Shown here one piece after another: positions 33,972 to 63,958 of a stretch of DNA of 64,000 bases (positions are counted from its first letter, which is position 1; each line of letters starts with the position of its first letter). The stretch covers positions 11,775,591 to 11,839,590 of the forward strand of contig OZ038469.1 of NCBI GenBank assembly GCA_964036295.1, read 5' to 3'. The stretch comes from Plumapathes pennacea. Its lineage: Eukaryota > Cnidaria > Anthozoa > Antipatharia > Myriopathidae. The position numbers and the translations under genes were made by a program. The notes under the pieces were generated by a model. That model was not told the DNA's origin and ran no database searches. It was given only the letters and a program-made list of their open reading frames with translations.

Positions 33972-34319
33972 TTATTACACGGGAAGGAGTGCAATACGGC
34001 GGAGTATTTTTACGAGTCGGTTTTATTTTTTCGAGCCTGCTTCAGGCGAGAAAAAAAAAACTGACGAGTAAAAATACAGCCGTATTTCACAACTTTTCGT
34101 GTAATAAATTGTTTATTACACGACAAACGAAGCAGGGCAAACATTCTCGCCGCGCGCAAAATGGAACAAAAAATGACGCGTTCGTAAACTTTGCTTGCGA
34201 AAATTGGTCACGTAAGCTAATAAACCAGTTGATCTGGTTCCTGACGAGTGCAATACGCTCCCATCTTTGCACTCGTTTTGGCCCGTATTTGCACTCGAAA
34301 ATGTGAAGTCGTGTAATAA
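33972..34319. mobile_element. MITE-like element with TTATTACACG ends
   Basis: Begins TTATTACACGGGAAGGAGTG and ends with the inverse CGTGTAATAA. A perfect internal palindrome around CGTGTAATAAATTGTTTATT lies near 34098-34123, so the element may be two arms joined or a nested pair. Shared GTGCAATACG motifs occur near both ends. The 155-codon plus-strand frame through it (33839-34306) is not a convincing gene. From 33682 to 33971 I see nothing. Confidence 0.65.
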
Positions 34320-34726: not shown

Positions 34727-37700
34727 TCACGATGTCCCCAGGAGTTTCAGTAGCAGTTGCTCGTGGTCTCCCTTCAGCCTGTCTCGTACCGCGTCCGCTA
34801 ATGGTTCGCCAAACTTCTGCTCGTAAGCAGATTTGATTTCAACCAAATCAATCTAGAAGATATTAATAGATGTAGCAGTTTTAGCTGAAAGATTCGCAAA
34901 AACTAGCTCGCAGAAATTATTTCACTGCCAAGAACGAATCTGACTCGGCCCTGCCAGGCCATCCCGCAAGCGGCCCCTCCAATGAAGACAAGTAGAAATT
35001 AAACCTTTCCATTAAAACTGCCCGTTTTCCTCTTCACAACGCTCTTCGTTGGAGAGCATGCTCACCTTGTTTGAGCACCTAAACATTCATTGACTTTAAC
35101 CCAAGTTTGTTATTACTAAGATATAGTGTTATAAGACCTTCTGGACTAAAGTACTGCCCAAGACGGGCAGATGATCAGGCATAAAAGTAGCATAATTTAA
35201 CCCTGGATTTCACTCCCACGAATGATCAACTTCAATTTTCTCCTTCGGTTTTTTATCAAAGATGTATCATGCAGTATGGAGAAATTGGCGCCTGATAGGT
35301 GTAAGCTTAATAAACTACCAGTTCACTATCACTCATACATTTTCTACTTAAAAGGTTGGGAGAATCTGCATTTTGAGATTGGGAGCGACGTAGTTTAAAG
35401 GGAACACAGCCTTACCTCGCATCGTGAAACCACCACACGAGTGACCGTCTTCGTATCTCCAACCACACCGCTCATTGCTTTGTTGAGAACTTCAGCAAAG
35501 TAGAGTGGAGTATTTCTTGTGCAACGAACTAAAAAGAAAAGGCAATGGGTGATAAAATTAATTTCACAATACAGTGATTTTTTTACTGAAGGATTTCCTT
35601 TCAACTCTGACGCTGATGACGTAGCTTGAGTAGACACGTGACCTCGACATGTGATTGAGTCTTCATTCAGGTTTTGTATGCTTAGGCCTGGCACGATAAG
35701 ACTTTTCCAGAAGAAACTGACTAGTATAGGAGAGTAATCTGTGACCATTGTATTTTCAAAATGTACTTTTTCAGATTTGCTAAAGCCTGCTTTTCAAAAG
35801 GGTCGCAAACACAAGAATCCTTACTTCACAGTGAGAGTAAACTCCACACAGGCGCAAGTACAAAGTTTTAAAATATTTCACTTCCGTTCCACTTGCGTCG
35901 CCCGTTTTTACTGACGCATACCTAATGTGTGCTTGTGCTTGCCTCGCTCGTGAAAACGAGGCTTATGATCGCTTCAAACGTCGAACTTTTTATGTATCAA
36001 ACTAAATACTAATGAGCTCAAACAACGGATTTTGCTTAGTTGCTTTGACTTAGACACTTGAAAAGTTTGACGTTTGAGTCAGCCAGCCGCAAAGTTTCCC
36101 ACTGCGCACCGCGCGCCCCGCAATAGTAGGATCACAATACAGTTATTTTAAGCAATGCTTGAAATATATTTTGTGGGGTCCGACTCTCTTATTCCTCCAT
36201 GCTCGATTATTTACGAATACAACAGATTAATCTTCCTCAAATAGCAATAAATATGATGAAATGCAAAACTGAATGATGTAATCCTTACCTATAGCTTTAA
36301 CTGAATCTTGGAAATTTCCCGTTAATTCGTCGTCGACCGACTTCATGAAGTCAATATTTGCAACCTGTTATAGTGTAAACCAGCAGAGTTTTAGAAAACA
36401 TAACACATCAAGTGTTTGGTCAGATGAAGCACACCCTAAATGGATATACGTTAATTGGGAGCTACTGAACAAAGGTATCTTGGTAAACTACAATCACGGA
36501 CAAAAGTTCATGACACGCACTCTGCCATTTGAAAACAAATTTCTAAATCTATTTTAACAGTAGCAACCATTTCTTCGGGCTGAACATTGTTCCATCAAGA
36601 AAATGTATGACAAAATTTCTACATTGGATTGGGTAACTGGTAGCAATAGATCTAAGTGAAAAAATAAAAGCTTTAGTTCCTCAGCACGTCTGGCTAACTA
36701 TCCGAAAAGAGAAATAGTTTTCCTTGAAGCTTTCTTTCAGTCTGAAGTGGTAAACAAGGCCACTCTTACATGCGTGTACGCCTCAAATGTGGCCTTGAGC
36801 TGCATGGGACTTCTGGTTGTAAGAATAGTGATAAACGCACATTCATCAGTACCCCATTTGCCATCTCCAGCCTGAAGGGGAGAACACACAAAAAATATTA
36901 CTGAAGGACAAAATATCACGAATTACCGTGATGATTCTATTAAGCACCATGCTTCTAACAAGCGCCCAGTCTCCCATCAGAGGCACGATTTAGGGAATCT
37001 GTCCTCCCAAACGTAAGCCTTACTTTTGGGGTCTTCCTTACTTTTGATCCCAGACCCTTCAATCTTACAAAAGTAGGGTTTTTCATCAAAGGTAAGGGGT
37101 CCTGAAAAATGCCAGCCTTGATCTTTCAAAAGTAAGGTTTTTCATCCAAAGTAAAATCAAGACTGGAATTTTCTGTTCAAATTTCTGTGCCCTAAATCAT
37201 ACCAGGCATAACGTCTCCAATAAGCGCCCCAGGTTGAGTGTCTTTTTTTTTTTTTTTTTTTATATATTTTTCATGTCATATATTATAACTTATACGACTT
37301 TCTATATCATATCTAAGTATACTCACTCGTGATAACTACATGATTTCAAGGGTTTTGTTTAATGCTTCATTTGAAGGCTTTGTGTGTACCGTATTTAAGC
37401 ATTCCTTTTTTTATCATAATATTATAATTGTCTTAAAATCTTGCACCTAAAACGTTTGTCATCTAACCTCATACAGATGTGTTGCATCCTTGTAGGCTAA
37501 ATCTTCATCTATCGCGTTGGAAGTGTCACGAGTCGCCTGCGAAAAAATAACACAAAATCGACAGATTAGGGTTTGAGGTTGTCATTAAAGAAATGCATAC
37601 AGATAGGGCATGTGATCAACAACAGTACATTTCATGTAACTCCTAACCACCACTGCAGTTATCACTACCATTACAATCACTAAAACGACTACTATTACAG

Positions 37701-40378: not shown

Positions 40379-43300
40379 CTAAAATAATTGAGCTGAGATT
40401 AGACCAAGGTATCGGAAAATTATGCGCAACGTTTTACGTGCACTTGAAACAGTAGAGAGCTATTTGTTCATGTGTCTTTTTTTCCCCCTTTTGGTTAATT
40501 CGACCCTTCTCTATTTTAACTACAATTTTACGTGCACTTGGAAAGTATATGAAAGGAGTTTATCAGCAAATAAAGAAAGAAAATTTACAGAAATCAATTG
40601 TTTACCTTAGTCACGTCAAGCTTTGGCCTGCTGTTTTTCTCCTTTTCTTCCACTAAATTCTGTTTAGCAAGCGTGGAAGGACACATAATGCTGTCAGTAA
40701 TAATAGTCATACAAGTTCATCTTCAAATTGAGGTTGTATGCGATGCGTCGAGCAGGCCCTGCACGTTCCCATACCTTTCTTTAGGTCGTGTACACGTTAC
40801 GGTTTCTAAAAGGGCTAAAAGTTGCAACTCCCACAAACTCCTTCAGAACAGGGTATAGTGAGACGTCCGGCTGCTATTACACTTTGTGAGGAAAACTTGC
40901 ATGAAATCTGAGACTGGGGCTTAAGTGTTCATGCCCTCTGTTTCGTAAAATTAGCTTCGTTGCTCTTTTTCCTTAGAAACTGTTTGGTGGAGCAGACTTT
41001 TTGCTAGTTTGCTGCCTTCATTTTCATAATTGACAATAACTGCATCTTCTCTTAACAAAACGACAAAGCAAATAACAATAAGTAGTTTATGGGCATTGGT
41101 CGGTAGGGCTACATTCATACCTGTTGCTCTTCCTCATCCAGGACGTTGTCTGCAAACAGCACGGTATTATTTCAAGTTAGTAGTTAATCTATATGATTAT
41201 TGGATTAAACGATTAATTTAAACGATGCGAATGAGATGATGACTGAAACTACAGTTGAGTACGGTGTGATTGTCAGGTTGAGGTGAGCTAGGGCCATGTG
41301 GTCAAAAGGAGAGAATCAAGTTAGAATAAACAAAAGTTATCAAATAATTAATTAAGCAGAGCATTCCTAAGATGGACAATAGAAGTGTTCAGGTGTGCAT
41401 TATCAAGTGGTCATCGTTAATTAATAATAAGTTAATTTTATTAGTAAGCTAATTATTAATAAGTTAATTTTATTAGTAAGTTAATTATTAATAAGTTTAT
41501 TTTATTAGTAAGTTTGACTTAGTTAGCTTGAATAATGTAGCTCAATCCAAGGGAAACTTAACTGCCAAACTGCAAAGGGCACTTACAACCTTTATGCCAA
41601 TCAATTTCTCGACTGATTGTTTCTGAGTTGATCACTGAATCAGTTCAATCAATGCATATTTCATGGCTGCAGGATTGAGAAGAATGTCCAATGTCAAGCC
41701 GTTTGCAAAGCATATTTCTATATTTGCGTAATATAATGTTACCCAACAAACTATGAAAGCAAAATGACTTTGAATGAAAGAACTGTACTCAGGGATAAAG
41801 ATCTTGAGCACAACAATATGAATTCTTGGAATGGGTTTGACTTTGCTGTCGTTGAAGCACTAAAAAGGGATAAAAAGGGACAAAAAAATTAAGCGAGATA
41901 GGGAGAAAATATAGTATTTTCTCTATGTGTTATTCCAAGATCTTTCGGCATCACGAATATGTATGGTGCGTTGACAAAAAATACAATTCAAGCGGCAACT
42001 GCGTGATTATCTCTATATTTTAATTACTTTTATAAGTAACTGAAGCAGCATCACTGTCTATGTATTATGTTTTTTGCTCTCAGCACGACAAATACATAAA
42101 ACTATTCGTTTGCTTAACAATGACATCTTTCTCTTGTCCGCTAGATATTGAATGTTCCAAGATTCGCTACTAAGCCGTGGAACTTGGAGATACTGAGAGC
42201 TGTGGAGCAGTCTATCCATCTCCGTAGTTTACAATTTCAGAGTTTTATAGATTTAACTTACTAATCATATCATTTCTAATATTTCTCTTCGTCATGATTT
42301 TTCCAATAAATGGAATATTGAAATTAAGATAGCAATTTAGTTATCGTAATTTTAATCATGGTATTGCAATTAGTGTTGAATTTAATTAGTAATGTAGATA
42401 CATCTATAATTATAAATCAGATAGTAGAATTTGTCTAATAGAAGGCTTTTTAAGAGATACATTTACTAGGAATTTTATATACACGATCGTATTTTGAACG
42501 AAATGCTTTTAGCTCTTGGGCGACTCGTGTATAAATAAAGGATTGATTGATTGATTGATTGATCGTCTCTCTTCTCAGCTAGACTTCATCATTGTGCCAA
42601 GTCTCCCTTTCTCTTCGTCTTTCTGTCTGCCTATATCTCTGTCTCTATTCTTGTTACTGTTTGTCCTTCTGTCCGTATCTTTTGGTCTCTGTATCTACTT
42701 TTCCGTGTCTGTCTGTCTGTACACTGTGCAACATCACAAAACCAAAGCCACAGTGCAGGAGCTCAGAGTGCATAGTTCGTAAGGTGCAAGTCAAAATTGC
42801 TTCTGTTGCGGGAGGGCTGGGCCCGGTTTTTCGAAAGCCGATTAAGCTAATCCAGGATTAACGAAATTCTTTCTCTCGACCTCTCTGCCAATAAACTGCA
42901 GAGTTTTGTTCGAAGATGGATTAAAAAGCTTGTTCCAGCTTAAAAGCGCATAAAGGAAGTTGTGGACGAAACGTTCACATTTTCAGGCATATAAATGCCA
43001 TGAAAGTTTAGACCTAATCCAGGATTAGCCTAATCGTGCTTTGAAAAACCGGGCCATGTGCACTACCAGATGCCTTGAGCAAGATAAGGTGCCAGGTGCA
43101 ATAAATGTACCTCCTTCCCGCACCTAACGCTGAGCAATTCTTTGTTTGTTAAGTCAGTTGTAAGTTTCAATCTGTCCCCGAAATGGAACATGCCCGACTA
43201 TGCTTTGCGTCATTCATGCAGTTTTCAAAGGCCCCGTCCACACTAACCCGGTTAATTTTGAAAACGGAGGTTTTGTATGAAAACGCATCGAATGTTTTCC

Positions 43301-46300
43301 ATCCACACTACCGTTTTCGAGTCGTTTTTGCTGTCCACACTAATACGTGTTTTCAAAAATATCCATTTTCGGTCACCGAAAACGCGTCTTAGTGTGGACG
43401 GGAGGCCAAAACGGATAAATAAATATCCGTTTTCAAATTTATCCGGATTAGTGTGGACGGGGCCAAAGTCTCGATATCATTCACTTCACGTTGAGTTTTT
43501 ATCGAAAAATATCTATATCTTTCCCGGATGAAATTCTGAAGAATCTTGATACTCCTCGTGACGCCCAGAATCGGATGAATGAACAGATGGACAGAAGATC
43601 GAATGAGAATGAATGAATTAATAAATGGATAAATAGATGAAGATGAATGAGAATGAAGGAACGAACGAATGAACGAACGAACGATTGAAGAAGTAATCGA
43701 TAGGGTTGAATTGGTGAAATAAAGTGCTTTTCCGTTTTGATTTGGCCGTTTTCGTCCTTGTCTTTGAGTTGGTGTTCATATGAATGATGGTTTGCGTATT
43801 CACTGGTGTATGGCATTGACGCATGGATGACGACAAAGCGTAAGTGGAGGATGTACCGAGGTCAGTTTTCCTCATTCTCTACCTTTCAGTTTTGGTAGCA
43901 TAACACTTTTTAGAACATCACTGCATCTTTTTTCCACTTCTTCAGCAAGCGTTGGTTTGTAAAAATAATTGTAGTTTCCCTGAATCTCTTTCAGCTCATC
44001 CTAAAACAAAGAGAATTACGCTGCTGAGTCAGTGTTGAAGACAGGGCATGCAATGGGAAGTCTACATTAGAACATGTTCACTCTTACTTCGAAAAACAGT
44101 ATAGTCATACCGACAAAAACATATCGGCCCTTATGTTTAACATCAAGAAAATACACAAACTCAATAAACGGCCAGTAAAAGCACAAACATAAACAAGAAC
44201 TAAGTACTGTATGGGTATAAACACAGAAACGATTTAGGCAAGCACATGGAATGAACATGGGCCCAATCAAACGGTAGACACCAAAACACTGGCCTAAGTA
44301 CAAGCACAGACGTCAACAGCAGTACGGAAACGAACAAATACTACGGCAGACAAACACAAAAGCCAAGAAATGTATTGGTATGCAAGAAAAAAGGGCTTGA
44401 CTTCGATTCAAGTCGAACTGTTTTCGTTCGAGCTGTTATTGGTGCTGTACTTTGGTTTGGATATTTGTTTATGAATCTATGTGTAGAAAGTTCAACTTAC
44501 CCCTTTTGCTCCCAGCACGATTCTGACGGCTGTCTTGGTATCCCCACCCTGCAGACACGTGTGGAGCTTGTCTACTTTCATCTTGTTTGAGTCCCGGATG
44601 CAAGCGACCAATGCCTTCAATCCGTCCCTCAGGTTACCGGTCATCTCGCTATCGAGAGAGTCTTCAATGTCGCACTTGGCCCACTGCATAGCGTCCGAAA
44701 AGTAGAGAAAAACGTTGTGAGTAAAAACACTGATAAAAGGATGCAAGTAAAAACTGGTGCTCACTGCAGATGGAAGTCGAAACACAATAGCACAATGGCA
44801 TAATCATCATCCTGCAAACTCTTTCTCAAGGAGGGAAAAGTTTCGTCTTTTAGCTAACCTGTCACCCCTGAACTCATTATATAAATGTAAGTTCTCCTAA
44901 TCATTCAGGAAGAAACGGCATGAGTGCCGTAGTGAGAAATGACAGCTTAATCAGTTTTAGCTAAGCAAGCTATCAAATACCAAACTCTCCTTGCTGTGTG
45001 ATACATCGAGAGATGGAGTAAGAAAATTGAACTTGATCACTCTCAGGGGTAAAAGGGTTGAACCTTCTGTACGTGTCACGTGGGTTGATCACGTGCTTAC
45101 CTGCTTGTACTCTGGCAGCATGACCTTCAACTGAGCGATACTGCGGACAGTGAAAATTTCAACAAACTTTTCTTCGTTGGTACCCCATTGTTTTATGCCA
45201 GCCTGTAAAATACAAAAGTAACAAAATATAAGAAAAAAAATGCTTCCTGTAATTTGAGAAGTCTAATAGTTCTCTAGTATCTCAGAGCCCAGTTGTTCAA
45301 AGGATAATGAAACTAATCCTGGATTAACTCAACACGACTTCCTCGATATGAGCCAGAGCAAGTCATTGTCCCTCGCCCTCAGTCTCTTCTCTTTCGAAAT
45401 ACAAAATGGCGGCATTGCGAATAAACGTGTGTTTCACCCGCAGCCAGTAAAGACCGCCAGCTACAAGGCTAATATTTGGTTAAAACTCTGAACTTTGTTG
45501 GCTCAGACAAACCGGAGCAGACGATTACGTGTTTGTTTAATAATTTCATGTGCGCCTCTCAAAATTGATCAATGGTGTTTCTAATCGAAGCCACTTTCAA
45601 AATTACGCGCAGTTGCCCGACCATCTGATGATAAAATTGGTAGGCAGAGTAAAGCTGGTGTTACACTGGTCGATTCGCAACGACGATTTGCAACGCCGAT
45701 TTGCTCCAAATCCACGCAACGGCGTTGCAAGTTTTTGAATCGCTTTCAAAAACTTGCAACGCGTTGCAGCACTGCAAACATCGCGAAAAATCGTTCGCAA
45801 TGGGGTGTTACACCTCAACGATTTTTAGCGCAACATCGCATCGTTGCAAATCGTCGTTGCAAATCGACCAGTGTAACACCACCTTAAAGGACTGCTTCTT
45901 TGGTCAATAACGCAAATATGTAGAAACAAAAGCAAGCTGGGCAAAGAGATTTAGTTGATAGACACTCGTCTATACCGGAAGTAAAAATTACTATTCGCTA
46001 CTGCGCATGACTGTGAAAGTGACCAGCGTTTCTCTTCATGACGCGCGTTTTGATGCGGATGCGGATACATACAGTCAATTGTATTTATCATTCGATGCTT
46101 TTCCCCCTCTCTTTCGATTGGCCGAGAGACTACTGCGTCACCTGAAAGTAAGTGCCTACAAGTATGTGCCTGCTCATGCGTACTACTGTTTTCGGCGTGT
46201 CAACTGCAAGTAATATTCTACTCATGCGCAGTTTTCATGAACAAGGCAGCTCGTTTTCGCTACAACGCGCGCTTCCCAACGTATCTTATGCCAAATAATT

Positions 46301-55300: not shown

Positions 55301-58300
55301 ATCAGCATTACACGAAAAACGATACGACGACCGTATGGCGTGGTAAGATTGCCAATACAGTGAAGTGCAGATGTAGCAAAGTGCAAAGGGGACTGAAACG
55401 ACCAAAATTATCGGCTTCGTTATATCAGGATTCAGTTCGTTTTTGACTAATAACTTGCATTATGCTCATCAAGAGATCAAGAAAAAAAAAATTATCGAGC
55501 TTTGAAACACTGGGCGCCAGCGTATGGGTTGTAGGACGTCTTCAGTGTGCAACTTTCTCGTAATGTAGGTGCATTTACGTATTTAAGGGTCATAACCATA
55601 TAACCATGCGCAAGAAGCACTTTGCTAGACTCGAGATATCAAGAGCATTTATAAGACAGACATCATAGAGTGCAATACGTTACCTGCTGATACTCTTGCT
55701 CATATCGGTCTCGAAGTTTCGTCGTTTTAGATTTTTCATCGCAATTTCTCGCCAGTATATCTACGATGTTGTCTTTGTCGGTTTCTGTAGGTTGAGAAGC
55801 AGCAGTGAGTGAAAAGTTGGTCGTATTATAAATTGTTTCAAAATAATGAATTAACAACAAGAATATTAATGATATATAATAATTCTACAAAAACTGTGTC
55901 TGAACTAATTCGTACAATCTTCGAGATCACCATAATTTCTAAGTATAGTTGCATATAATGTTAGCAATCACGTCACGTTACAATCAGATGGTTCAGAGAT
56001 GAGAAGTTATAAGAACAGCTACCATTAATAAACAAATTCCCTTTATAAACAGTTTTTTTTTTTTCACCTTGGATGGCCTTATGCAACTCGTCACAATCCA
56101 CCTTGGCATTGTCTGTTTTCTTTGAATCCTTCTTTACAGCAGTTTCTTCTTTCTTCTTTTTCGGTGACGCCTTTGCGTTGGTATCCTTTTTACCTTTTTC
56201 CTCCTGTCCGTACATGAAACAATACAATTGACATACCAACTTGGGGTGAACGCTCAAATATGTTTAAATAGAAATAAATAATAATTAATCATAAATAAAC
56301 TTTAAATTAGCACTAAAGAAAGAAAAATATCTTCTAAGGGGTCGGGGGTTCAAACACTGATAAGGTTTTTGCGATTATTAGGAAGACCAATAAAAAGTGA
56401 ATGAAATACTCAATTAGGACTACAAACTCACCTTCTGTTTCTGCTTATTGGTTTTACCTGGAAAGAAAGGCGTAGTTTGTTATTTTAATTTAGAACAAAT
56501 GCGTAAAGGAATGGAGTCAAAAAAGGCGGAAAAAGAAATAAATAACACAAATTAATGAATGCAACAAGGAGTGAGAAAAAGAGGTTGAGAGAGATGACAA
56601 ACGAGAGAGAGTCCAACAGATAACCAGGCAGGTGAACTAGGAAAAAATAAAATAAAAAATAAAAACTCTCAAAATATTACTTTAAGGTTCCTCTCAAACA
56701 CAGTCAAATTTGAGCAACAAAACCCTCGGTCCGGCCTTTTTAGGTGCCCGTTTGAGAAAACAATTAAATTAATTTGGCCGGATGTTGCTATTTATTAATC
56801 TTGATACATCACGAGTTTTGTTAGGAAAAACCAAGTTCAGCTTTCAATTTTATATGCATTTCCAAATAAAATATGAAAATAACATCAGATTGGCTGAGAG
56901 GACCCTTAACAAAATGCTTTTGAACACTCCATGTAACACTATATTAAAGTGACCCACCAAGTTTAGCCAGTAACAGCTTTCTTGTGTCCCCACTGCAGTA
57001 TTTATCAGTATCGTCCGCAAGTTCACGCTTGTGTTCCGCTTTGTAACTTGCCGTAAATCTATCCAGCACATCCTAGCAAACAAGAAACAAGAAACTTTCT
57101 AAATCAGCCACAGGGCAGGCATCATTCACTAGCCAAGATACATCCTCGGAGACCCAAGAGGCAGATCTAAGGGCGGCGGGTCCCCCCCTCCCCTCCCCCC
57201 TCTTTTTGCTGCCTGTCGCCCCACGATCTGCCCCTGGGTCTTTGAGGATGGCCCAGATTGTTCAAACAAGAGCAAGTTCTCGGGAAAAAGGGAAACTCTA
57301 CCAGCCCGACGCAATTCGTCGCTCCTGCAGCCATGGCTATTGTAAAAGTGGTTCTAAAGATATTTAAAGAATGACAAATTCTGAGACACGATGAATATAT
57401 TCCTTTTCGATTCCCTTGCTTCTTTGTTTGTTTATTTGTTTATTTGTTTGTTTGTTTGTTTTAAAGGAAATTTAGAAATAGAAGTCTCTACAACGTGTCC
57501 GTGCTAAAGCTGGTCTTACTTTGTCCTTTCCAAGAACAATCCTGCTAACAGCGACGTTATCACTTTCCTGGAGGGCCTGGTAAAGTTTCTTCGCGTAAAA
57601 CTTCGAAGGATTCTGTGCACAGCTCACTGCAAGAGGAACACGAATAAATGATAATGAGATGCATTATATTATGTGTGTATGTGTATGTATACGTGTATAT
57701 ATATGTAGTGTACTGTTCGTTCGGCTGTGTTTGATATCGTCTATGAGTTGTTTGTAAGGTGAAGGGAATTGCTGGCCTCTGTTGAGAGGTTTCCGCCTTT
57801 AGTATGTGTTCCTGGAGACTACTTTAACCTGGACGATCACAACTAACGCATTGTTCACGCTCCTAGGTACAACTAACAATTTGTGCACGACTGTTAATAC
57901 AATATGGTATGCTATTATGAGACTCAGAAAAGGTTTACTAATAATGTGCAAAAGATGTAAAACTAGCCTAAACTAACCTCTGGTTAAATCTTGATTAGAC
58001 GTATTTGAAACATTATTCACTAAGCAAATGTGTACTGATTTTTATAGTTGAAGTCAGACACTCTTTATAGTTACCTAGCGTAAGAAAAGCCTTCTGTAAA
58101 TCACCATCCATCTCACTGTCAATCGACGCTGCTATTTCGACCTTGGCTAACTGCAGTGGGCGTAAAAACAAGGTAATGATCAGAAGTATGCATCGCGCAG
58201 TGAAAGTGCTTTAAAGGGTTTTACTACTTCCTGGAAAAGTTCTCATCACAAACTGCTACAAAAAGAGCGGCAAACGATGTTTAAAAAAACGTGGGAAAGC

Positions 58301-61300
58301 TGAAAGCTGTAGATTGAAATAAGTATTAGCCGGCGCTTCGAACGTTAGCCCTTCGTCGGAGCAAGGGCTGGGCTAACGCTGGATACTTCAGCTAACACTT
58401 ACCTGTACGGCTTTCAGATTCCCACGATTAGCCTTGATTCACCATACGTTCTTTTATTTTTATTTTTCACCACGCCGACGCTGTGCTCAATCTGGCTCTT
58501 ACAAGCACTAGCACTACATTGTGTTTTAAATTTAAAATTTGTCTAAAATTATCCGGATTATCAACTCTGAACTACTTGACACCTTTGAAAAATGTCACCA
58601 CCTTCCATATTTTTGTCAATTCCAAAAATTAAAGTTATCATACCCAAATATAGTATACGGTAGGTACCTATAACACCACTATCTTGAACCCGGTTATCTC
58701 GAACTCCCCGCTATCTCGAACAGAATCTGATTTCTCTCGGAAATGATCTTGGTAGAAATTTCCCTTGGTAGAACCCCACTATCTTGAACTCGGTTATCTC
58801 GAACTCCCCGCTATCTCGAGCAGAATCCGATTTCCCTCGGGAATGAACTTGGTAGAAATTTCCCTTGGTAGAACTCCGCTATCTTGAACTATTTCTCTCT
58901 TCCCTTGAGAGTTCGAGATAGCGGGGTTCTACGTGGCCACAGTCATATTACTTGCCATGTAAAGCTAAAACTCCTGGGCCCGTTTTTCGAAAGTTTTTCG
59001 TAAGCTAATCTAGGATTAACGAAATTTTTTCTCTCGACCTCTCTGCCAATAAACTGCTGGATTTTGTTCGAAGATGGATTAAAAAGCTTGTTCCAGCTTA
59101 AAACGTTATCAAGAAAGTCGTTGTGGACGAAACTTTCACGTTTTCAGGCTAAAAAATGACAAGAAAGTTTAGACCTAATCCAGGATTAGCCTAATCGTAC
59201 TTTGAAAAACCGGGCTCTGGGCACGATTAGCTAATTCAGGATTAGCCTTATCGTGCTTTGAACAACCGGGCCCTGTAGCATATAACATGGGGAAAGATAT
59301 GTTACCTTTTTGTATTCAGGGAACATGGGTCTGAGTTGAGGGAAGCTCCTCTGAGTGAAGACCCGGATGAACTGTCCTTCGTCAGTGCTCCAGGTTTTGG
59401 CCCCAGCCTCCCAAAGGTCTTTTGCGTCACTTTTTGCAAGTTCTTTATCAACCTTAGAAGTTTCATCTCGTGCTCCCTGGGAATCCAAAATGTAATTGAA
59501 GCGATTTCTTAACTTTTTCCCAAGAACGTAACTTCCGGGGATGAAGGGTACGTCGCATTGCATTTCATAATATTTTACCTTGCACAGCTCAATCAGTAAA
59601 ACTTCCAAATCGCCACTAAGGTCTCCCTTGAGGTCCGCTTCGAGGGTTCTGCCATACTCTGAAAACGAGGCACAGTTTCAGTTAAAGAGTAGCAGCGAGC
59701 CAAGCAGGTGAAATGTTTGAAATATTGATTCACTGTTCAGCTGTCTTTCAGCTAGATAAATTGCGATATGTCATGCATAGCTTACTTTTATTGTAAACTT
59801 CTTTTATTCTTGCCATTTCCTAAAAAATGATGAAAAAGACGGATCAAAACCATATTAAAACGAGACAATTGGAAAAGCCAACTCACTGTAGGCGAAAGAA
59901 TAGAAAAGAGAAATTACTGATAAGTGATGGAGGTAGGGGTGATATGAGTTGCATACAGTTGATATATAGCCGCAGTATTTACTTACTGTGTTCGATCTTG
60001 TGCACAGGATCTCAATGAGTTCATCTTCATCAGTCCCAAGGCCCTGAAAGAGGGTTGGTTTGAAAACTTAATTCTTTTGTCCAAATGTTTTTCTTTTTTT
60101 CTTTTTTTCTTTTTTTCTTTTTTTTTTTTTTTAATAAAGAGTTAGACTAAACAGAAGAAGACAGAAGTTGGAATTTGAAGATCGAGAATGACAAAACGCG
60201 AACCTCCCTATTTGAAGAAAGGAGAGGGGTGTGATGTTAGCGCCCAGCCTGTGGAAGTGGAAATAAAGTTTCCTTTACCTTCATAGCTTCGTACAACCGT
60301 GTCGCGTCATCTTCGGCTGAGCAATCGAGCGCCTTCAAAGCTTTCTGTGAATCTTCATCCATATATTTCATTAAAGCTTCTATCAGATCCTGCCACAAAG
60401 AAAAGTCACACGTCTTTGCGGGTTTCCATTACAGTTTCTCGAGTATTGATTACGATAAACGGAAATAATTATTGTCTCGAGATAATTAACTTGTTATGGT
60501 ATAGATATTTTTACCACTTCGTTGAGACCTTCTTCCATCGAAATTTAATGACAAAAAATACAACTTGCAAAACTCTCTGAAAAACAGCACGATGAATGTT
60601 CCTATCAAACGTCTATTTTTTCATAAATTCTCAAATAATCTATCCACATCTCAAAAATGGTCTGTTTGGTTGATGATGGGCTGCGATTGAAAGTATGGTA
60701 TCTTACCCCATCGTGCATTTCTTTGTATTTCTTCTTAACCTTTTCAAGTTTCTCAGAAACCTTGCCCGTGATTTCTAAAATTCTGTCCCTGTCTTCCCCT
60801 GCAGGAAAGATAAAAAAAAAAAAAAAAAAAAAAAAAAACAAGGAAAGATTAGAAAAATGCGTTTTCGAAAATATTCGTTTTCGGTCACCGAAAACTCGTC
60901 TTAGTGTGGACGGGAGGCCAAAACGGATAAATAAATATCCGTTTTCAAACGAAGACGGATTAGTTTGGACGGGGCATGGCGGATCAAGGATTTCGGCGCG
61001 CAAAGGACTGTGGTTGAGAGGGACGCTTCATCGCCGCCCCAAGAGAGAAAATCCAAGGAAAGGGGAAAGTGAACATGCAGGAGCATAGAGAATAGAGAAT
61101 TATATTTATGTCCTCACTCTGAAATGCATCATGAAGGTCCTCCACGTGCTGGCAGAGCGCGTCCTCTGACAGTAGGTCGTTGCTCATGTCTTTTCCTTTC
61201 TTCTTTCCGTCTATTGGGGGTAGATTGACCTTTTCTTTTTCCTTTCCCTTCTTAGTGCTCTTTTCTTGCTGCTTTTTCTTGTCCGTCTGTTAGCAAAATG

Positions 61301-63958
61301 AAGTGATAAAACTAAACAAAGAACAAGTTCTATACCGTAAATTATTCGATGTCGTGGGAAAAGAGTGGTTTTTAGATGACTGTTAAAAACCAAAACCAAA
61401 GTAGTACACTTTCAACCAATCAGAAACTAACTAGTAATTTGCGTTTGGTTTTACTTTGAAGAAACCAATCAGCAGTGCGAGGAAACGCCATCGCCACTTC
61501 CTTGCTTGCGTGAGAACATCGCAATCGTTTCTTTTGTTTGTTTGTTTTTTGTTGTTGTTGTTTTTTTTTTTATGTTGTTACTGATTGACCAAGAATGTTC
61601 TTAAACTTTTGGATGAATCTAAAAGCGTAGGAAAGTAACGCAAACCCAAAGTTCACACGATTACTTTCAACAGTCATCCGAAAACGGCTTTACTACCATT
61701 TGGGGAACAAACCGCAAGTTTTAAATCAAGAAGATGGAAATAATTGAAAGCTTGTTTTAATTCGGGACATTTTAAAGAGAAGCTATAATTAGGATAGAAC
61801 ATTCATTTTGTTCATTTCGCTTGTTTAAAAGAAGAAGACAAAGAGTGTGGACTTGTCAAAAGGATTAGACTAATCGTAATCCTTTTTGAGACATTTCTCA
61901 CCAAAGGAGGTAACTTGTCTTGAGGTTTCTCAGTTTCGTCTTCTTCTTCTGTCGCTTCAACTTCCTCTTCGTCGCTGGAATAACTTTCCTGTAGAAAAGA
62001 AAATCCTATTAAATACACTGACAAATACCTGTCGATCCATTACATTTTAGACATAAGACAAACCCCAAAAGGACGAATTCAAAAGGACAAGCCGGTCAAT
62101 AATCTCGGCCACTTCCTCAATGAACTCCTTACCCTTCGCTCGTATCCTTCATCTACTTCGTCGTAGTCCTTCGTCGTGTTTCCCATCAAAGACAGATAAT
62201 ACAGGTGTTTTTCATAGTCTCTCTCCTGCAACAACAAAGCTGTTGTAAGTAAACAACTTTGACCCGTGTTGATAAGCCAAAATTTTAAAACCGATATCGG
62301 TAAAAAATTAACCCAAAATCGCGACGCGTCAAACAGGGCACATACTTAGGAAACCCTAAAAGTAACATACATCGTGTAGTAAGCATAAGTAACTGGTATA
62401 ATGTAGTAATCTATCGCTTCTATTTTCTATTTTAATCTCAGCCTTAATTTCGCAAAAGTTTTCAGTCAGCGATGAAACTTGCCTGTATCAATAATGTTAT
62501 CGTGTTTTTATGTTTTTTGCTAATCGGTGGAAGGCTTATTTACAGTCAGTTAATCAACTCATTAAGGTCTAATAATTTAGAACGAGTTTGGCCTACAACT
62601 AAGAAATGTGCCTTTCTAAGTCCCACATTATTCTTCTTGTTGTCGAAAACCCCAACCAAAACGACATATACAGTGCCAATCACAAAGGCTGTACGAAACC
62701 ACTACAACTAGAATCCAATAGAATTTGCAATTGGTTTCACTTTGAACAGCGGTCCAATTTGCAGTGCCAAAAAAAAAAGCCATCGTCATTTCCTTGCTTG
62801 CATGACGAGAACATAAGCAGGTTTTCCTTTTGTTCCTGATTGGCCGAGAATGCTGCTAAACTTGTGTGGACCAATTAAAAAGTGCAGCATAATACATACA
62901 CGTAAAGACTAGCTAGATCGTATACAATCTGCTGCAAGAAGTGTGGCTAAAATATGGGCCCTGCTTAATAGCACGTTAATAAAGTTGGCAGACTGTTCCA
63001 AAGTATGGAAGCGATTAACACAAACGCTCTATCTATCTATCAATCTACAAGTTGAAGCACGTCTAAGTGAAAGCCATGTTTACAGTCCTCTTACCCATTC
63101 TCCCAAATCGTAATAGGGCTCGGTATTTTGTATTCTCTTCTCCATCAACTGCAGGTGATGAAAAGAGATTACATAAATATTTAGCACACATAAAAATACT
63201 TAGAACTGAGATGTACTTTAAGATTGCATCGGCAAGGAGAAAAACGTATAGTAAATGGACTAGGGGTTGATGTGTGAAAACTGGACGCCGTTAAAGAGAC
63301 CCTGTCACCGTAGATGCTTTGCGCGCCCAGTGACTGATGGCGGATTCTCATGTTTTTCTACGTTTTATCGCAAAATAAATTAGCAAAAACTCAGAAAGTG
63401 TATTGAATATGGCAAGTAGCGATAGTCAAATCGATCAGTCGTAACGCGGGCGCCTCAGGAAAGTCGAGCTCCGGATGCAAATATAAACATGGGCGTGCAA
63501 AGCATCTAAGGTGAGAGGGTCTCTTTAAGAAATTTGAGCTGACGTTTTAAACGTTAGCTATCAAGGGTGTTCTTTAAGGGAGGTTTCACTGTACGCTGAA
63601 AAGGAACCAACGAAGAGGTGCGCGAAAATGTAGCCACGTGACATACCCTGTTTTCTCTGTTAATCACTCTCATCCTTCTTTCTCTGTATCTTTTTAGTCT
63701 GTCTTTCCTGGGGAAGAAAAAAGAGGTATTTCCAATTCATTTCCATTTCAATGACATCAGTGGCCAAAATCCAAATTCCAGATTGTTAATTAGAAAAAAT
63801 TTCACCACACGTGATCACTAAGTGCAGTTGAACACTTACTTGGGTTTGTACGACATGTTCTGATGGTCGACTCTCGCTGGTGACTGTTTTATTTCGACGA
63901 GTTTTTCCAGGATCTGTTGATTTTGCCGCGCGATTTCCGCCTGGCGCTCTTGCTCCAA
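34727..63958 (-). CDS. Giant 16-repeat annexin (four annexin cores), 51 exons seen, 5' end open
   Basis: Annexins are cytosolic proteins that bind acidic phospholipid membranes in a Ca2+-dependent way. Here 51 exons on the minus strand splice with GT/AG borders and matching phases into 4,518 nt (1,505 residues plus stop, TGA at 34727-34729). Layout in residues counted from the first exon seen: 1-175 coiled coil and charged region; 176-475 core A; 516-820 core B; 862-1160 core C; 1189-1505 core D. Each core has four repeats of about 70 residues. The strongest hallmarks are the GLGT/GVGT loops of repeat 2 (residues 263, 602, 947, 1288), the following LCxRxN-type helices, and acidic partners such as KGDLSGD and SSETSGD about 40 residues later. 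Exon coordinates are given under the segment entries. The first exon is open at its 5' side and preceded by a splice acceptor, so the true start is likely outside the window. Family assignment is certain; the single-transcript model is strong because every junction keeps frame. Confidence 0.94.
35205..35397. repeat. Dispersed repeat family X, copy 1
   Basis: Shares with copies at 38735-38962, 44860-45062 and 52630-52852 the motifs TGATCAACTTCAATTTTCTC, GCAGTATGGAGAAATTGG and a TTGGGAG end. It is in the same orientation as copy 2 and opposite to copies 3 and 4. It lies in the intron between the last two annexin exons; the rest of that intron (34855-35204) shows nothing. Confidence 0.6.
35942..36078. 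repeat. Inverted repeats in an annexin intron
   Basis: A hairpin CCTCGCTCGTGAAAACGAGG at 35942-35961, and arms TCAAACGTCGAACTTTT (35974) and AAAAGTTTGACGTTTGA (ending 36076). Probably a decayed TIR element. Confidence 0.45.
37640..37790. repeat. Trinucleotide-rich (ACT/ACC-type) tract, left half
   Basis: Irregular ACTACTACT/ACCATTACC-like repeats. The tract resumes at 38352, so the TIR element at 37791-38351 was inserted into it. Confidence 0.7.
37791..38351. mobile_element. MITE with 30-bp TIRs and TA target duplication
   Basis: TIRs TAGAGTGATTTCAATAAACC... (37791-37820) and its inverse (38322-38351) differ at one position in 30. Both outer ends are TA, consistent with the TA target duplication of Tc1/mariner-type transposons. 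The 500-bp interior has no convincing coding frame. Near-identical TIRs suggest a recent insertion. Confidence 0.8.
38352..38515. repeat. Trinucleotide-rich tract, right half
   Basis: ACTACTACT/CCACTACC-like repeats continuing the tract that ends at 37790. It stops close to the annexin exon at 38526-38605. Confidence 0.7.
38735..38962. repeat. Dispersed repeat family X, copy 2
   Basis: Contains GAGTGATCAACTTTAAATTT, CAGTATGGAGAACTTGGC and the end TTGGGAGTAAAAGGGTTA. It ends about 9 bp from the annexin exon at 38971-39004, on the donor side. Confidence 0.65.
39965..40032. repeat. (AAC)n microsatellite
   Basis: About 68 bp of AAC units with few interruptions, ending about 13 bp from the acceptor of the annexin exon at 39858-39952. 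Confidence 0.9.
40606..41149 (-). CDS. Annexin gene: linker C-D (mini-exon plus one exon, alternative splicing likely)
   Basis: Two in-frame solutions exist. In the preferred one, a 29-nt mini-exon (41121-41149, DNVLDEEEQQ with the split codon) is followed by an exon at 40606-40659 (NLVEEKEKNSRPKLDVTK). In the other, the mini-exon is skipped and the next exon begins at 40652 using a second AG 7 nt downstream. Skipping and the acceptor shift compensate exactly, so both keep frame and differ by 12 residues. The mini-exon has good borders (TTTGCAG acceptor, CAG/GTATGA donor) and sits where the 26-nt linker exons lie in the other linkers. This linker is shorter and more acidic than A-B and B-C. 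Confidence 0.72.
41150..42530. other. Long intron stretch with a 32-bp minisatellite, otherwise featureless
   Basis: Part of the 2.7-kb intron between exon 43883-44000 and the mini-exon. At 41416-41520 a 32-bp unit (GTTAATTTTATTAGTAAG...) is repeated about three times. The rest is AT-rich with no frame or motif I can name. 40660-41120 is likewise empty of recognisable features. Confidence 0.6.
42440..42566 (+). mobile_element. Possible 3' end of a non-LTR retrotransposon with (ATTG)n tail
   Basis: GTATAAATAAAGGATTGATTG followed by ATTG units is the type of ending seen at 3' ends of some L2/CR1-like retrotransposons. No reverse transcriptase frame is visible upstream, so it would be a truncated copy. 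Inference from the tail only. Confidence 0.3.
42595..42722. repeat. Pyrimidine-rich (TCTG/TCTC) low-complexity tract
   Basis: Imperfect CTGTCTGTCT and TCTCTGTCTC-like units. The open frames over it have Ser/Leu/Cys-rich low-complexity products and are not credible genes. Confidence 0.75.
42820..43055. mobile_element. MITE family P, copy 1 (GGCCCGGTTTTTC ends)
   Basis: Begins GGCCCGGTTTTTCGAAAG and ends CTTTGAAAAACCGGGCC, with TAATCCAGGATTA near both ends. Its interior (CTCTCGACCTCTCTGCCAAT, GAAGATGGATTAAAAAGCTT) matches the copy at 58976-59273. Short fragments of the same ends occur near 45290-45335, 50250-50285 and 52155-52210. Confidence 0.85.
43230..43464. mobile_element. MITE family Q, copy 1 (GGCCCCGTCCACACTAA ends)
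   Basis: TIR GGCCCCGTCCACACTAA at the left and TTAGTGTGGACGGGGCC at the right, perfect over 17 bp. The interior is made of further short inverted pieces such as GTTTTCGGTCACCGAAAAC. A truncated copy lies at 60858-60975. Confidence 0.85.
43560..43690. repeat. Tetranucleotide (GAAT/GAAC-type) repeat
   Basis: GAATGAATGAAT, AAATGGATAAATAGATG and GAACGAACGAAC-type units. It explains the repetitive frames on the opposite strand at 43499-43875. Confidence 0.8.
43883..49936 (-). CDS. Annexin gene: core C (repeats 1-4)
   Basis: Exons: 49836-49936, 48972-49085, 48309-48365, 47744-47777, 47593-47672, 46507-46575, 45101-45202, 44501-44683, 43883-44000. Repeat 1 lacks GxGT (DNKREQIKEIISKN). Repeat 2 begins GVGTNEQLLIEMLCPLSN, with a Pro-Leu in place of the usual Ser-Arg after the cysteine, and has RDETHGE downstream. 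Repeat 3 begins KQWGTNEEKFVEIFTVRS, close to the WGTDE form common in repeat 3 of annexins, with LDSEMTGN downstream. Repeat 4 (QGGDTKTAVRIV) lacks the loop. The exon at 44501-44683 is 183 nt, exactly 76 + 107, which are separate exons in cores A and B: an independent intron loss. This core has the most element insertions in its introns. Confidence 0.93.
44860..45062. repeat. Dispersed repeat family X, copy 3
   Basis: Inverse orientation to copies 1 and 2: GAAAATTGAACTTGATCACT, then CTCAGGGGTAAAAGGGTTGA at its end, and ACCCCTGAACTC at its start. Confidence 0.6.
45651..45889. mobile_element. MITE with arms of about 45 bp, rich in GTTGCAA motifs
   Basis: Left arm GGTGTTACACTGGTCGATTC and GCAACGACGATTTGCAACG; the right arm is the inverse, with the same order of motifs. 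The arms are nearly identical. The interior repeats TTGCAACG/CGTTGCAA. Both-strand open frames here (45603-45910) are by-products. Confidence 0.85.
46323..46468. mobile_element. Palindromic MITE-like element
   Basis: Arms AATGATAAAACAATTATT..., GCAAAATATAGTGAATTGCC and, inverted, GGCAAATCACGATATTTTGC..., CCAATAATTGCTTATCATCG. GCAGATC/GATCTGC lies near the centre. Confidence 0.7.
46711..46885. repeat. Element fragment with GTCCGTT/AACGGAC motifs
   Basis: TCTTAACGGACACTCCTCTA, AAAACGGACAGTTGGAGCTG and GGGTGTCCGTCTTAGAAG form loosely inverted pieces. It relates to the GTGTCCG motif of 33287-33411 and 48001-48252. Confidence 0.5.
47120..47583. mobile_element. MITE with AAGGTGCCG ends and CAGGGACATG repeats
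   Basis: The left end AAGGTGCCGAGTCACGTAGC mirrors the right end (inverse AAGGTGCCGGCACACTAG), and CAGGGACATG/CATGTCCCTG pieces recur throughout. At 47139-47245 a 44-bp unit is tandemly repeated about 2.3 times. The element ends 9 bp past the last base of the annexin exon at 47593-47672, close to its splice donor. Confidence 0.8.
48001..48260. repeat. 84-bp tandem repeat, about three copies
   Basis: TCCGCTTACGAGAATGAGTA recurs at 48001, 48085 and 48169, with a partial fourth at 48253. Each unit contains TTTGACTGAGCTTGAGTTTA and GGTGTCCGTATTAGAACTG. Units 1-2 and 2-3 are almost identical. It lies in the intron just beyond exon 48309-48365. Confidence 0.9.
49354..49585. mobile_element. MITE with GGGGCCAATYCA ends
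   Basis: Left end GGGGCCAATTCAATAAACAT; right end ATGATTTATGATTGGCCCC, its imperfect inverse. The arms extend inward through ACAAGTGTATTTTACAAGTT and its partner. Confidence 0.7.
50030..50690 (-). CDS. Annexin gene: lysine-rich linker B-C (two exons)
   Basis: Exons 50665-50690 (26 nt, NDKRKQPK) and 50030-50168 (139 nt). The second encodes a Lys/Ala/Ser-rich stretch including SKSSTVKKDSKGVGDKNK and ends with the first helix of core C (VDECDQLQIAIE). Composition and exon lengths mirror linker A-B. The intron between the two exons carries a CCCCAC-type microsatellite. Confidence 0.88.
50505..50602. repeat. CCCCAC-type microsatellite
   Basis: Runs of CACCCCCACCCCCACC with CCTCATCC interruptions, in the intron between the two linker B-C exons. 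The Pro/His-rich plus-strand frame over it is an artefact of the repeat. C-rich/G-rich strands may fold. Confidence 0.9.
50991..55784 (-). CDS. Annexin gene: core B (repeats 1-4)
   Basis: Exons: 55684-55784, 55130-55243, 54905-54961, 54365-54398, 53481-53560, 53214-53282, 53022-53126, 52419-52494, 51480-51586, 50991-51117. Repeat 1 lacks GxGT (ETDKDNIVDILARN). Repeat 2 begins GLGTDEDMLVEVLCSRTN and has IKGDTSGN downstream, so it keeps a plausible Ca2+ site. Repeat 3 carries KAIGTDEDQF with one extra residue (105-nt exon instead of 102) and KEMSGD downstream. Repeat 4 (VSGDIASLARVI) lacks the loop. The last exon could end at the GTAAGT donor used here (exon end 50991) or 5 nt earlier in the transcript; both leave a one-base remainder but differ in length, and the GTAAGT version is the better consensus and stays in frame. 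All introns are kept, so this core shows the fullest ancestral exon pattern. Confidence 0.93.
51690..52137. mobile_element. MITE with AGGCCCTGTTTAT ends
   Basis: AGGCCCTGTTTATATAAGAA at the left and CCACATAAACAGGGCCT at the right. The interior has GGGACAAC/GTTGTC and CTCGGGG motifs in both orientations. It sits between annexin exons 51480-51586 and 52419-52494. The 186-codon minus-strand frame at 51649-52209 is inside it and is not annexin. Confidence 0.75.
52630..52852. repeat. Dispersed repeat family X, copy 4
   Basis: Contains CATTCCTGAGCTGATAATAC, GAAAATTGCAGTTGATCACC and CTCAGGAGTGATTGGG. Same orientation as copy 3. Confidence 0.55.
53950..54245. mobile_element. MITE family R, copy 1 (AGAGCSGTTTTC ends)
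   Basis: Left end AGAGCGGTTTTCCGATGACT; the right end is the inverse of AGAGCCGTTTTCGGATGACT, and both continue GTCGAAA. The interior contains AACCAAAACCAAAG and GATTGGCTGA-type motifs. Related copies are at 61361-61690 and, decayed, at 62637-62880. Confidence 0.8.
54595..54845. repeat. Tandem repeat of about 66 bp, nearly four copies
   Basis: CACGCGCAAA marks unit starts at 54600, 54663, 54730 and 54796. Units contain ATAATCACTAGTAGCATCAC and TAATAACCTACACC. A CA-rich stretch precedes it. Confidence 0.85.
56068..56457 (-). CDS. Annexin gene: lysine-rich linker A-B (two exons)
   Basis: Exons 56432-56457 (26 nt, KTNKQKQK after a split codon) and 56068-56203 (136 nt). The second is dominated by Lys, Glu, Asp and Ala, with runs such as SPKKKKEE and KKDSKKTD, and ends in the first helix of core B (VDCDELHKAIQ). 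The pattern of a 26-nt exon followed by one of about 136 nt recurs in the B-C linker, so the linker was duplicated with the core. It is low in hydrophobic residues and probably disordered. The basic runs could bind acidic membrane or act as localisation signals; neither can be decided from sequence. Confidence 0.88.
56958..61286 (-). CDS. Annexin gene: core A (repeats 1-4)
   Basis: Exons: end of 61118-61286, then 60707-60798, 60279-60389, 59987-60043, 59786-59819, 59579-59658, 59306-59476, 58075-58150, 57520-57626, 56958-57072. Repeat 1 (residues about 176-262) has no GxGT loop; REDRDRILEI stands in its place. Repeat 2 begins GLGTDEDELIEILCTRSN and ends with KGDLSGD, so a type II Ca2+ site is plausible. 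Repeat 3 has TWSTDE where WGTDE is expected, so the loop glycine is a serine. Repeat 4 (QESDNVAVSRIV) lacks the loop. The exon at 59306-59476 is 171 nt, exactly the sum of the 69-nt and 102-nt exons found separately in cores C and D, so one intron has been lost here. Its repeat-1 exon is 111 nt against 114 nt in the other cores. Confidence 0.93.
57141..57250. mobile_element. Short palindromic element (CATCCTCGGAGACCC ends)
   Basis: CATCCTCGGAGACCCAAGAG at the left and the inverse GGGTCTTTGAGGATG at the right, with GGCAGATC/GATCTGCC inside and a C-rich centre. About 110 bp. Confidence 0.7.
57415..57465. repeat. (TTTG)n microsatellite
   Basis: TTTGTTTGTTTATTTG units. A second simple repeat, TGTGTATGTGTATGTATACG..., lies at 57670-57708. 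Confidence 0.85.
58318..58425. repeat. Hairpin repeat with GGGCTAACG arms
   Basis: ACGTTAGCCCTTCGTCGGAG and GCAAGGGCTGGGCTAACGCT form a stem around 58341-58380. Weaker outer pairs (GAAAGCTGTA, TACGGCTTTC) extend it. Probably a dispersed repeat. Confidence 0.6.
58671..58932. repeat. 100-bp tandem repeat with an inverted end
   Basis: CTATCTTGAAC recurs at a 100-bp period (58676, 58776, third partial near 58876), with GGTTATCTCGAACTCCCCGC in each unit. The right end (GTTCGAGATAGCGGGGTTCT) is inverted relative to the units, as in a TIR element whose left arm was amplified. Confidence 0.75.
58976..59273. mobile_element. MITE family P, copy 2
   Basis: Same order of motifs as 42820-43055: CGTTTTTCGAAAG, CTCTCGACCTCTCTGCCAAT, GAAGATGGATTAAAAAGCTT, TAATCCAGGATTAGCCTAAT, AAAACCGGGC. 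It carries an additional terminal piece (TTAGCCTTATCGTGCTTTGA, ACAACCGGGCCC), so the right end is duplicated. It ends 33 bp from the annexin exon at 59306-59476. Confidence 0.85.
60090..60134. repeat. Poly(T)/TTTC low-complexity tract
   Basis: TTTTTCTTTT units ending in a T run, in the intron between exons 59987-60043 and 60279-60389. Confidence 0.8.
60811..60838. repeat. Poly(A) run next to a splice acceptor
   Basis: More than 20 A on the plus strand. On the transcribed strand this is a T run directly upstream of the acceptor of exon 60707-60798, so it may act as its polypyrimidine tract. Confidence 0.8.
60858..60975. mobile_element. MITE family Q, copy 2 (5'-truncated)
   Basis: Matches the right half of 43230-43464: GTTTTCGGTCACCGAAAAC, TCTTAGTGTGGACGGGAGGC, GGATAAATAAATATCCG, ending TTAGTTTGGACGGGGC. 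The left terminus is missing. Confidence 0.8.
61118..63958 (-). CDS. Annexin gene: N-terminal coiled-coil and charged region (exons 1-6)
   Basis: Exons in transcript order: 63840-63958, 63647-63707, 63095-63148, 62133-62225, 61902-61988, 61118-61286. Exon 1 encodes a Glu/Gln/Leu-rich helix (starts LEQERQAEIARQ, continues ILEKLVEIKQ) typical of a coiled coil. Exon 2 is very basic (RLKRYRERRMRV). Exon 3 carries a PYYDLGEW motif. Exon 5 is strongly acidic, including SYSSDEEEVEATEEEDE. Exon 6 is a lysine-rich linker leading into the first helix of core A (LSEDALCQHVEDLHDAFQ). An in-frame ATG at 63854-63856 could start a shorter protein, MSYKPK..., but the frame is open through the whole exon and an acceptor AG sits at 63959-63960. 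I therefore treat that ATG as internal. I do not recognise a named domain here. The acidic stretch could bind Ca2+ or basic partners, but that is a guess. Confidence 0.85.
61361..61690. mobile_element. MITE family R, copy 2
   Basis: Ends AAGAGTGGTTTTTAGATGAC and ACAGTCATCCGAAAACGGCT; interior AACCAAAACCAAAG, CCAATCAG and ACTGATTGACCAAG in the order seen at 53950-54245. Confidence 0.75.
62637..62880. mobile_element. MITE family R, decayed copy 3
   Basis: Retains TTGTCGAAAACCCCAACCAA, TTGGTTTCACTTTGAA, CATTTCCTTGCTTGCATGA, CTGATTGGCCGAGAATG and TTGTGTGGACCAATTAAAAA, but the ends are lost. Confidence 0.5.
63291..63528. mobile_element. MITE with TTAAAGAGACCCT ends
   Basis: Left TTAAAGAGACCCTGTCACCG with TAGATGCTTTGCGCGCCC; right GGGCGTGCAAAGCATCTA and GAGAGGGTCTCTTTAA, the imperfect inverse. 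It lies in the intron between the second and third exons seen. Confidence 0.8.

Follow-up and report, generated by a model that had tools for sequence, protein, structure and literature searches.

The question raised by this locus is whether a long run of annexin exons, on the minus strand of a 64,000-nt stretch of Plumapathes pennacea DNA (the window), encodes a single protein, and what such a protein might do. The initial annotation had proposed that the reading frame is kept from position 63958 to a stop at 34727 over 51 exons. We compiled an exon list of our own by a splice-aware profile search, followed by manual curation on splice signals and frame, and this bore out the proposal. The minus-strand chain from 63958 to 34727 consists of 51 exons encoding 1505 aa and is open throughout; its sole stop is terminal, ending at 34727, and the internal junctions carry AG acceptors and GT donors. 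Downstream of the stop, at a distance of 344 nt, there is an AATAAA motif (34383). A tblastn search of the window with the 1505-aa product (E ≤ 1e-3) returned 57 hits, every one of them on the minus strand and not below position 34000, and Rfam gave no matches at gathering score.

Automatic gene search was less clear. A loose run divided the annexin region into five genes, and two stricter runs yielded one gene apiece, with 47 and 50 exons, a few of which were zero or one base long. Exons A1 and C1, which are coding and lysine-rich, were missing from the stricter runs, and between the second and third annexin cores these runs placed a micro-exon other than the curated one. The weight of the one-gene case therefore lies on tests of the individual joints.

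Beside the annexin gene lie two arrays of a 334-bp satellite, at 1667-20707 (57 copies, 97% matches) and 22916-32229 (27.9 copies, 96%), together occupying about 44% of the window. Outside the exon chain, seven open reading frames of the window were scanned against Pfam and gave no families at E ≤ 0.01. This outcome covers two of the nine open reading frames that lie within or near the 2.2-kb interval separating the arrays, and a 186-codon open reading frame within an intron of core B (51649-52209, minus strand), which is perhaps part of a repeat.

The upstream end of the chain encodes a CFAP97/Hemingway domain, overlooked in the initial annotation and typical of axonemal doublet-microtubule proteins, followed by an acidic tail and the first annexin exon:

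62133..63958, minus strand: CFAP97/Hemingway region, exons N1 (63958-63840), N2 (63707-63647), N3 (63148-63095) and N4 (62225-62133)
61902..61988, minus strand: exon N5, acidic tail ESYSSDEEEVEATEEEDETEKPQDKLPPL, coding-like, acceptor 17.6 and donor 5.6 half-bits
61118..61286, minus strand: exon A1, a coding-like lysine-rich prefix and the start of core A repeat 1

The Pfam model Hmw_CFAP97 (PF13879) scored 37.7 bits on N1-N4 (cutoff 25.6) and was matched over profile positions 33-100 of 100, with about 32 profile positions upstream of N1, outside the window. NCBIfam gave no matches on the N-terminal part. Among solved chains this part matched 8snb (9.8e-7), 8otz (CFAP97 domain containing 1; 2.9e-5), 9e78 (9.3e-5) and 9v10 (CFAP97D1, which we take to be identical to C17orf105; 7.6e-4), with 9e2g (KIAA1430 homologue) reaching only 0.2. 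Similarity to 8snb extends 47 residues beyond the PF13879 stretch, and the alignment pairs residue 1 of N1 with residue 59 of the 8snb chain, which indicates that 63958, the first base after an AG, is an internal exon boundary and that the gene starts beyond the window. Position 63958 does not hold as a start.

Downstream of A1, the chain continues through four annexin cores, designated A to D:

56958..60798, minus strand: remainder of core A, exons 60798-60707, 60389-60279, 60043-59987, 59819-59786, 59658-59579, 59476-59306 (two fused exons), 58150-58075, 57626-57520 and 57072-56958
50991..56203, minus strand: core B with its lysine-rich prefix, exons 56203-56068, 55784-55684, 55243-55130, 54961-54905, 54398-54365, 53560-53481, 53282-53214, 53126-53022, 52494-52419, 51586-51480 and 51117-50991
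43883..50168, minus strand: core C with its lysine-rich prefix, exons 50168-50030, 49936-49836, 49085-48972, 48365-48309, 47777-47744, 47672-47593, 46575-46507, 45202-45101, 44683-44501 (two fused exons) and 44000-43883
34727..40378, minus strand: core D with the stop codon, exons 40378-40291, 39952-39858, 39547-39434, 39140-39084, 39004-38971, 38605-38526, 37536-37468, 36871-36770, 36364-36289, 35528-35416 and 34852-34727

That these are four successive annexin cores, as initially annotated, is confirmed by the Pfam annexin model PF00191 (cutoff 25 bits), which scored 181 bits on core A (with A1), 176.5 on B, 148.2 on C and 266.7 on D. When the repeat stretches of the translation were counted singly at E ≤ 5, 15 passed on their own (four each in A, B and D and three in C). 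Exon boundaries fall at matching profile positions across the cores; core-specific intron losses have fused exons 7 and 8 in A (59476-59306) and exons 9 and 10 in C (44683-44501).

The cores differ in their relationships. Cores A, B and C are mutually 40-43% identical and each shares 33-37% identity with D, which is itself 45-46% identical to three ordinary annexins. A nine-row tree groups A, B and C in a clade (100/100) apart from D and five ordinary annexin rows, indicating that the array is a set of three diverged sister cores and one canonical core, not four equals. Repeat 4 of cores C (44683-44501) and D (35528-35416) carries an unusual GDTKT motif at the position where ordinary annexins have a calcium loop, even though D in other respects falls with the ordinary annexins; its presence in both cores could stem from common descent or from gene conversion. 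Relatives of the cores were detected at one locus in a viral and seven in a prokaryote collection, with best segments of 28-45% identity. The virus-collection contig (L001, 9530-10288) holds a frame with one annexin-like repeat, ELYDAMKGLGTDEEAIYRIL, after a proline/lysine/glycine-rich stretch; the other matches (L002-L008) are in seven contigs filed as bacterial, including Myxococcales and rumen bins, some of which could be eukaryote contamination.

The CFAP97 domain and the four annexin cores appear to be encoded by one animal gene. The sequence itself shows the exon chain, the domains and the inventory of calcium sites; beyond these we infer a single transcript, and for its product we favor, at a probability of roughly 0.45, a ciliary protein that sits on doublet microtubules, contacts the ciliary membrane through its annexin cores and acts as a calcium-sensitive tether. 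To judge from its family, the N-terminal CFAP97/Hemingway domain would dock on the outer surface of the axonemal doublets, and the lysine-rich linkers could add binding to the acidic tails of tubulin, while the four annexin cores would extend to the ciliary membrane. The principal calcium-switched membrane binder would be core D, in which three of the four calcium sites are canonical or close to it, and cores A-C, left mainly with their repeat-2 site, would serve as spacers and as weak, graded binders. The outcome would be an axoneme-membrane tether, sensitive to calcium, that stabilizes long cilia or alters their beat. The initial annotation had suggested a protein bridging several membranes or a membrane-bound rod; given the CFAP97 domain, a link between axoneme and ciliary membrane seems likelier than one between membranes.

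By analogy with known proteins, a ciliary location is reasonably likely overall, and more so if the CFAP97 region is joined to the cores. Proteins with a CFAP97 domain have been reported to be required for axoneme assembly or stability (PMC7444823, PMC10425847). In mouse sperm, CFAP97D1 is placed on the doublet with TSSK6 and EFCAB3 (PMC13066092), and it is among the proteins listed for the outer surface (PMC13406575). Annexins have been described among the markers that the ciliary cells of oyster, flatworm and sea urchin larvae have in common (PMC10396302). Given one gene and a ciliary location, the odds of calcium-dependent tethering would be better than even.

Type II calcium sites follow the pattern G-X-G-T-D-38X-D/E (PMC4863580). 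Scored by alignment to 1yii, the 16 sites comprise six that are clear, one near-canonical site (repeat 1 of core D, GFGS), one that is ambiguous (repeat 3 of core B) and eight that are lost. The repeat-2 site is canonical in all four cores and the repeat-4 site in none; cores C and D have a canonical repeat-3 site, A an altered one and B one interrupted by a one-residue insertion, and a repeat-1 site is found in core D only. Two residues of the calcium loops of repeats 1 and 4 have been lost in each of cores A-C. About six or seven of the 16 sites look intact, and the loss of about half argues against four equal membrane-binding cores and, on these site patterns, weakens the case for a calcium switch.

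The eight clearly lost sites would suit a structural rod that sits on the axoneme and works without calcium, its cores binding tubulin or each other in the manner of alpha-14 giardin, a protein reported to interact with tubulin and to self-assemble (PMC4863580, PMC3499766). We consider such a rod unlikely. The retention of the repeat-2 sites throughout, together with the three canonical or near-canonical sites of core D, hints that the binding of calcium and lipid is under selection, and the ANXE1 fourth-repeat model (annexin E/alpha-giardin) matched core A only, below its cutoff (20.6 vs 27 bits), with cores B, C and D unlisted.

Returning to a calcium-sensitive tether encoded by one gene, we consider the joint between the CFAP97 region and core A. 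Codon scores were trained on 1204 core-exon codons and compared with those of 1500 stop-free intron windows of equal length. None of the 1500 controls reached the score of N1, N4 or N5, 3.4% reached that of N2, and the signal of N3 was weak (8.9%). The lysine-rich prefixes of A1, B1 and C1 are likewise coding-like (0/1500 each). In A1, 33 of the 36 prefix codons precede the first ATG of the exon and an in-frame stop lies just 5' of the acceptor; if coding, the prefix is therefore spliced from upstream. The N5 donor fits the A1 acceptor in phase at a distance of only 615 nt. The joint is favored by this coding signal ahead of the ATG in A1, which is absent from the tails obtained by reading through the donors of N4 and N5, both non-coding-like (reached by 89% and 70% of controls, respectively).

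The same data bear on a pair of neighboring genes, in which a short CFAP97 gene ends after either N4 or N5, and the A1 ATG is the start of an annexin gene of 12 or 16 repeats whose product would be cytoplasmic and link membranes through several cores, much as an enlarged annexin A6 would. Such an end would agree with four of the five solved CFAP97-family chains, which are 158-164 aa long and finish 12-24 residues beyond their match to N1-N4. The best point for separate neighbors is an ATTAAA at 61761, past N5, that could end a CFAP97 transcript reading through N5; together with the weak coding signal of N3, it counts against a single-gene ciliary protein. Against neighbors stand the coding-like A1 prefix, the non-coding-like tails and the short, phase-matched step from N5 to A1. 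We regard two such genes as improbable, and the CFAP97 region as very probably joined to the protein that contains cores A, B and C.

The three gaps between cores share a common plan, consisting of a phase-1 donor, a micro-exon of 26, 26 or 29 nt and a phase-0 acceptor:

56432..56457, minus strand: A-B lysine micro-exon, 26 nt, GKTNKQKQK, best chain 6.9 (runner-up single exon -35.0)
50665..50690, minus strand: B-C lysine micro-exon, 26 nt, ENDKRKQPK, chain 2.0, mean codon score 0.61
41121..41149, minus strand: C-D micro-exon CD1, 29 nt, DNVLDEEEQQ, top of 136 in-frame single-exon bridges
40606..40659, minus strand: possible second C-D linker exon CD2, NLVEEKEKNSRPKLDVTK, weak acceptor (1.1)

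The best chain through each gap was compared with those of 400 random gaps generated from the trinucleotide statistics of the gap itself. The observed score was reached by 0/400 for A-B and by 6/400 each for B-C and C-D; in an initial, smaller test with 40, 40 and 12 controls the corresponding counts were 0, 1 and 0. Codon scores, which for these micro-exons and for the stretch from an ATG at 40686 cover only 8-9 codons each, were reached by 0.8% of controls for A-B, 2.3% for B-C and 0/1500 for CD1. A rival B-C micro-exon at 50609-50584, the one chosen by the automatic runs, has a chain score of 3.5 but is non-coding-like, with a mean codon score of -0.73. Cores A, B and C almost certainly lie within one protein. 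The lysine-rich linkers of the initial annotation are present at A-B and B-C, two of the three inter-core joints, whereas the C-D linker is acidic, with a net charge of -4.

The C-D joint is the weakest. Its donor, in exon C11, ranks third weakest of 50 (2.7 half-bits), and an in-frame stop follows within 12 nt, as would fit a three-core CFAP97-annexin protein (12 repeats) that stops just after C11, with core D forming a separate four-repeat annexin from the ATG at 40686, which is in frame with it. The acidic linker, unlike the two others, and the canonical position of core D in the tree also speak for two genes; its grouping with ordinary annexins instead of A-C is what would be expected of a once-separate neighbor, and tells against one gene. 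CD1, however, ranks first among the 136 bridges both in splice score (16.7, next 2.4) and in codon score (0.97, next 0.63), is first of 24 candidates when chained to 40659-40606, and is similar in size and phase to the 26-nt micro-exons at A-B and B-C. The nine codons from 40686 to 40660 are non-coding-like (reached by 37% of controls), and past the C stop the first ATTAAA lies at about 1.5 kb (42386) and the first AATAAA at about 2.4 kb (41506), compared with 344 nt for core D. A split at this joint is a poor prospect in our judgment, and core D is probably part of the protein as well. As to CD2, it is coding-like (reached by 0.6% of controls), but with it the chain score falls from -11.4 to -23.6; it may be skipped or absent, and the frame is kept with or without it.

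Assigning cores A, B and C to genes of their own was rejected, given that each bridging micro-exon keeps phase and that nearly all randomized gaps score lower than the observed chains; a false duplication in the assembly was rejected because the cores are only 33-43% identical.

To our knowledge, annexins have no accepted role in animal cilia, and the largest annexin array that we know of has eight repeats. If the protein proposed here is real, its axonemal anchor and four annexin cores would give the link between annexins and cilia a molecular form, raise the direct question of whether calcium makes doublets grip the ciliary membrane, and take annexin arrays from eight repeats to sixteen. Annexins are present in ciliary gene lists (PMC4300403, PMC10396302). 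In the literature searched, the phrase "16 annexin repeats" was absent, and the three papers mentioning both CFAP97 and annexin have titles that concern breast cancer or extracellular vesicles. The phrases "sixteen annexin", "four annexin cores" and "sixteen repeats" did not occur in the first 15 of 61 matching papers. Automatic annotations may exist in public protein databases. Tentatively, and with the odds against it, a calcium-sensitive ciliary tether of CFAP97 and tandem annexins might be conserved in animals and have been overlooked through split gene models, in which case the Nematostella models 240545, 96324, 96179 and 34056 could be pieces of one such gene.

Among known systems, annexin A6 resembles the predicted protein in having more than one annexin core, and it tops the solved matches to core A, with a score that sums two cores. 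It differs in having two cores and eight repeats, in place of the four cores and sixteen repeats found here, and we know of no CFAP97 domain in it. In the tree, core D falls outside the clade formed by A5 and the two halves of A6, and A-C are further off. None of the best 60 of 76 solved-chain matches to core A is named as an axonemal annexin. With CFAP97, CFAP97D1 and Hemingway the likeness lies in the PF13879 domain; the five solved chains of this family that we found are 158-231 aa long, too short to hold an annexin core besides.

The diplomonad flagellar annexins offer a parallel in that they are annexins tied to flagella. The outer axonemal doublets are labeled by Spironucleus annexin 3, and for alpha-14 giardin binding to both tubulin and lipid is reported (PMC4863580). 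They differ in being described as four-repeat proteins, with no mention of a CFAP97 domain.

Also comparable are genes of the Nematostella apical organ, of which 78 were confirmed by in situ hybridization (PMC4300403). Among these are three "Annexin A" models, ao37, ao44 and ao167 (96324, 96179 and 34056), with a single sea urchin homologue, SPU_019139, and the KIAA1430 model ao161 (240545, C17orf105); all four are marked X in a column that we read as "ciliary" (PMC4300403). KIAA1430 is another name for CFAP97 (PMC10425847), and the sea urchin annexin is expressed in the apical organ and ciliary bands (PMC4300403). These genes are consistent with a ciliary role for the Plumapathes protein, though not proof of it. 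They are given as separate gene models, which sets them apart from the present locus, and they resemble it in their expression in an apical organ with long cilia (PMC4300403).
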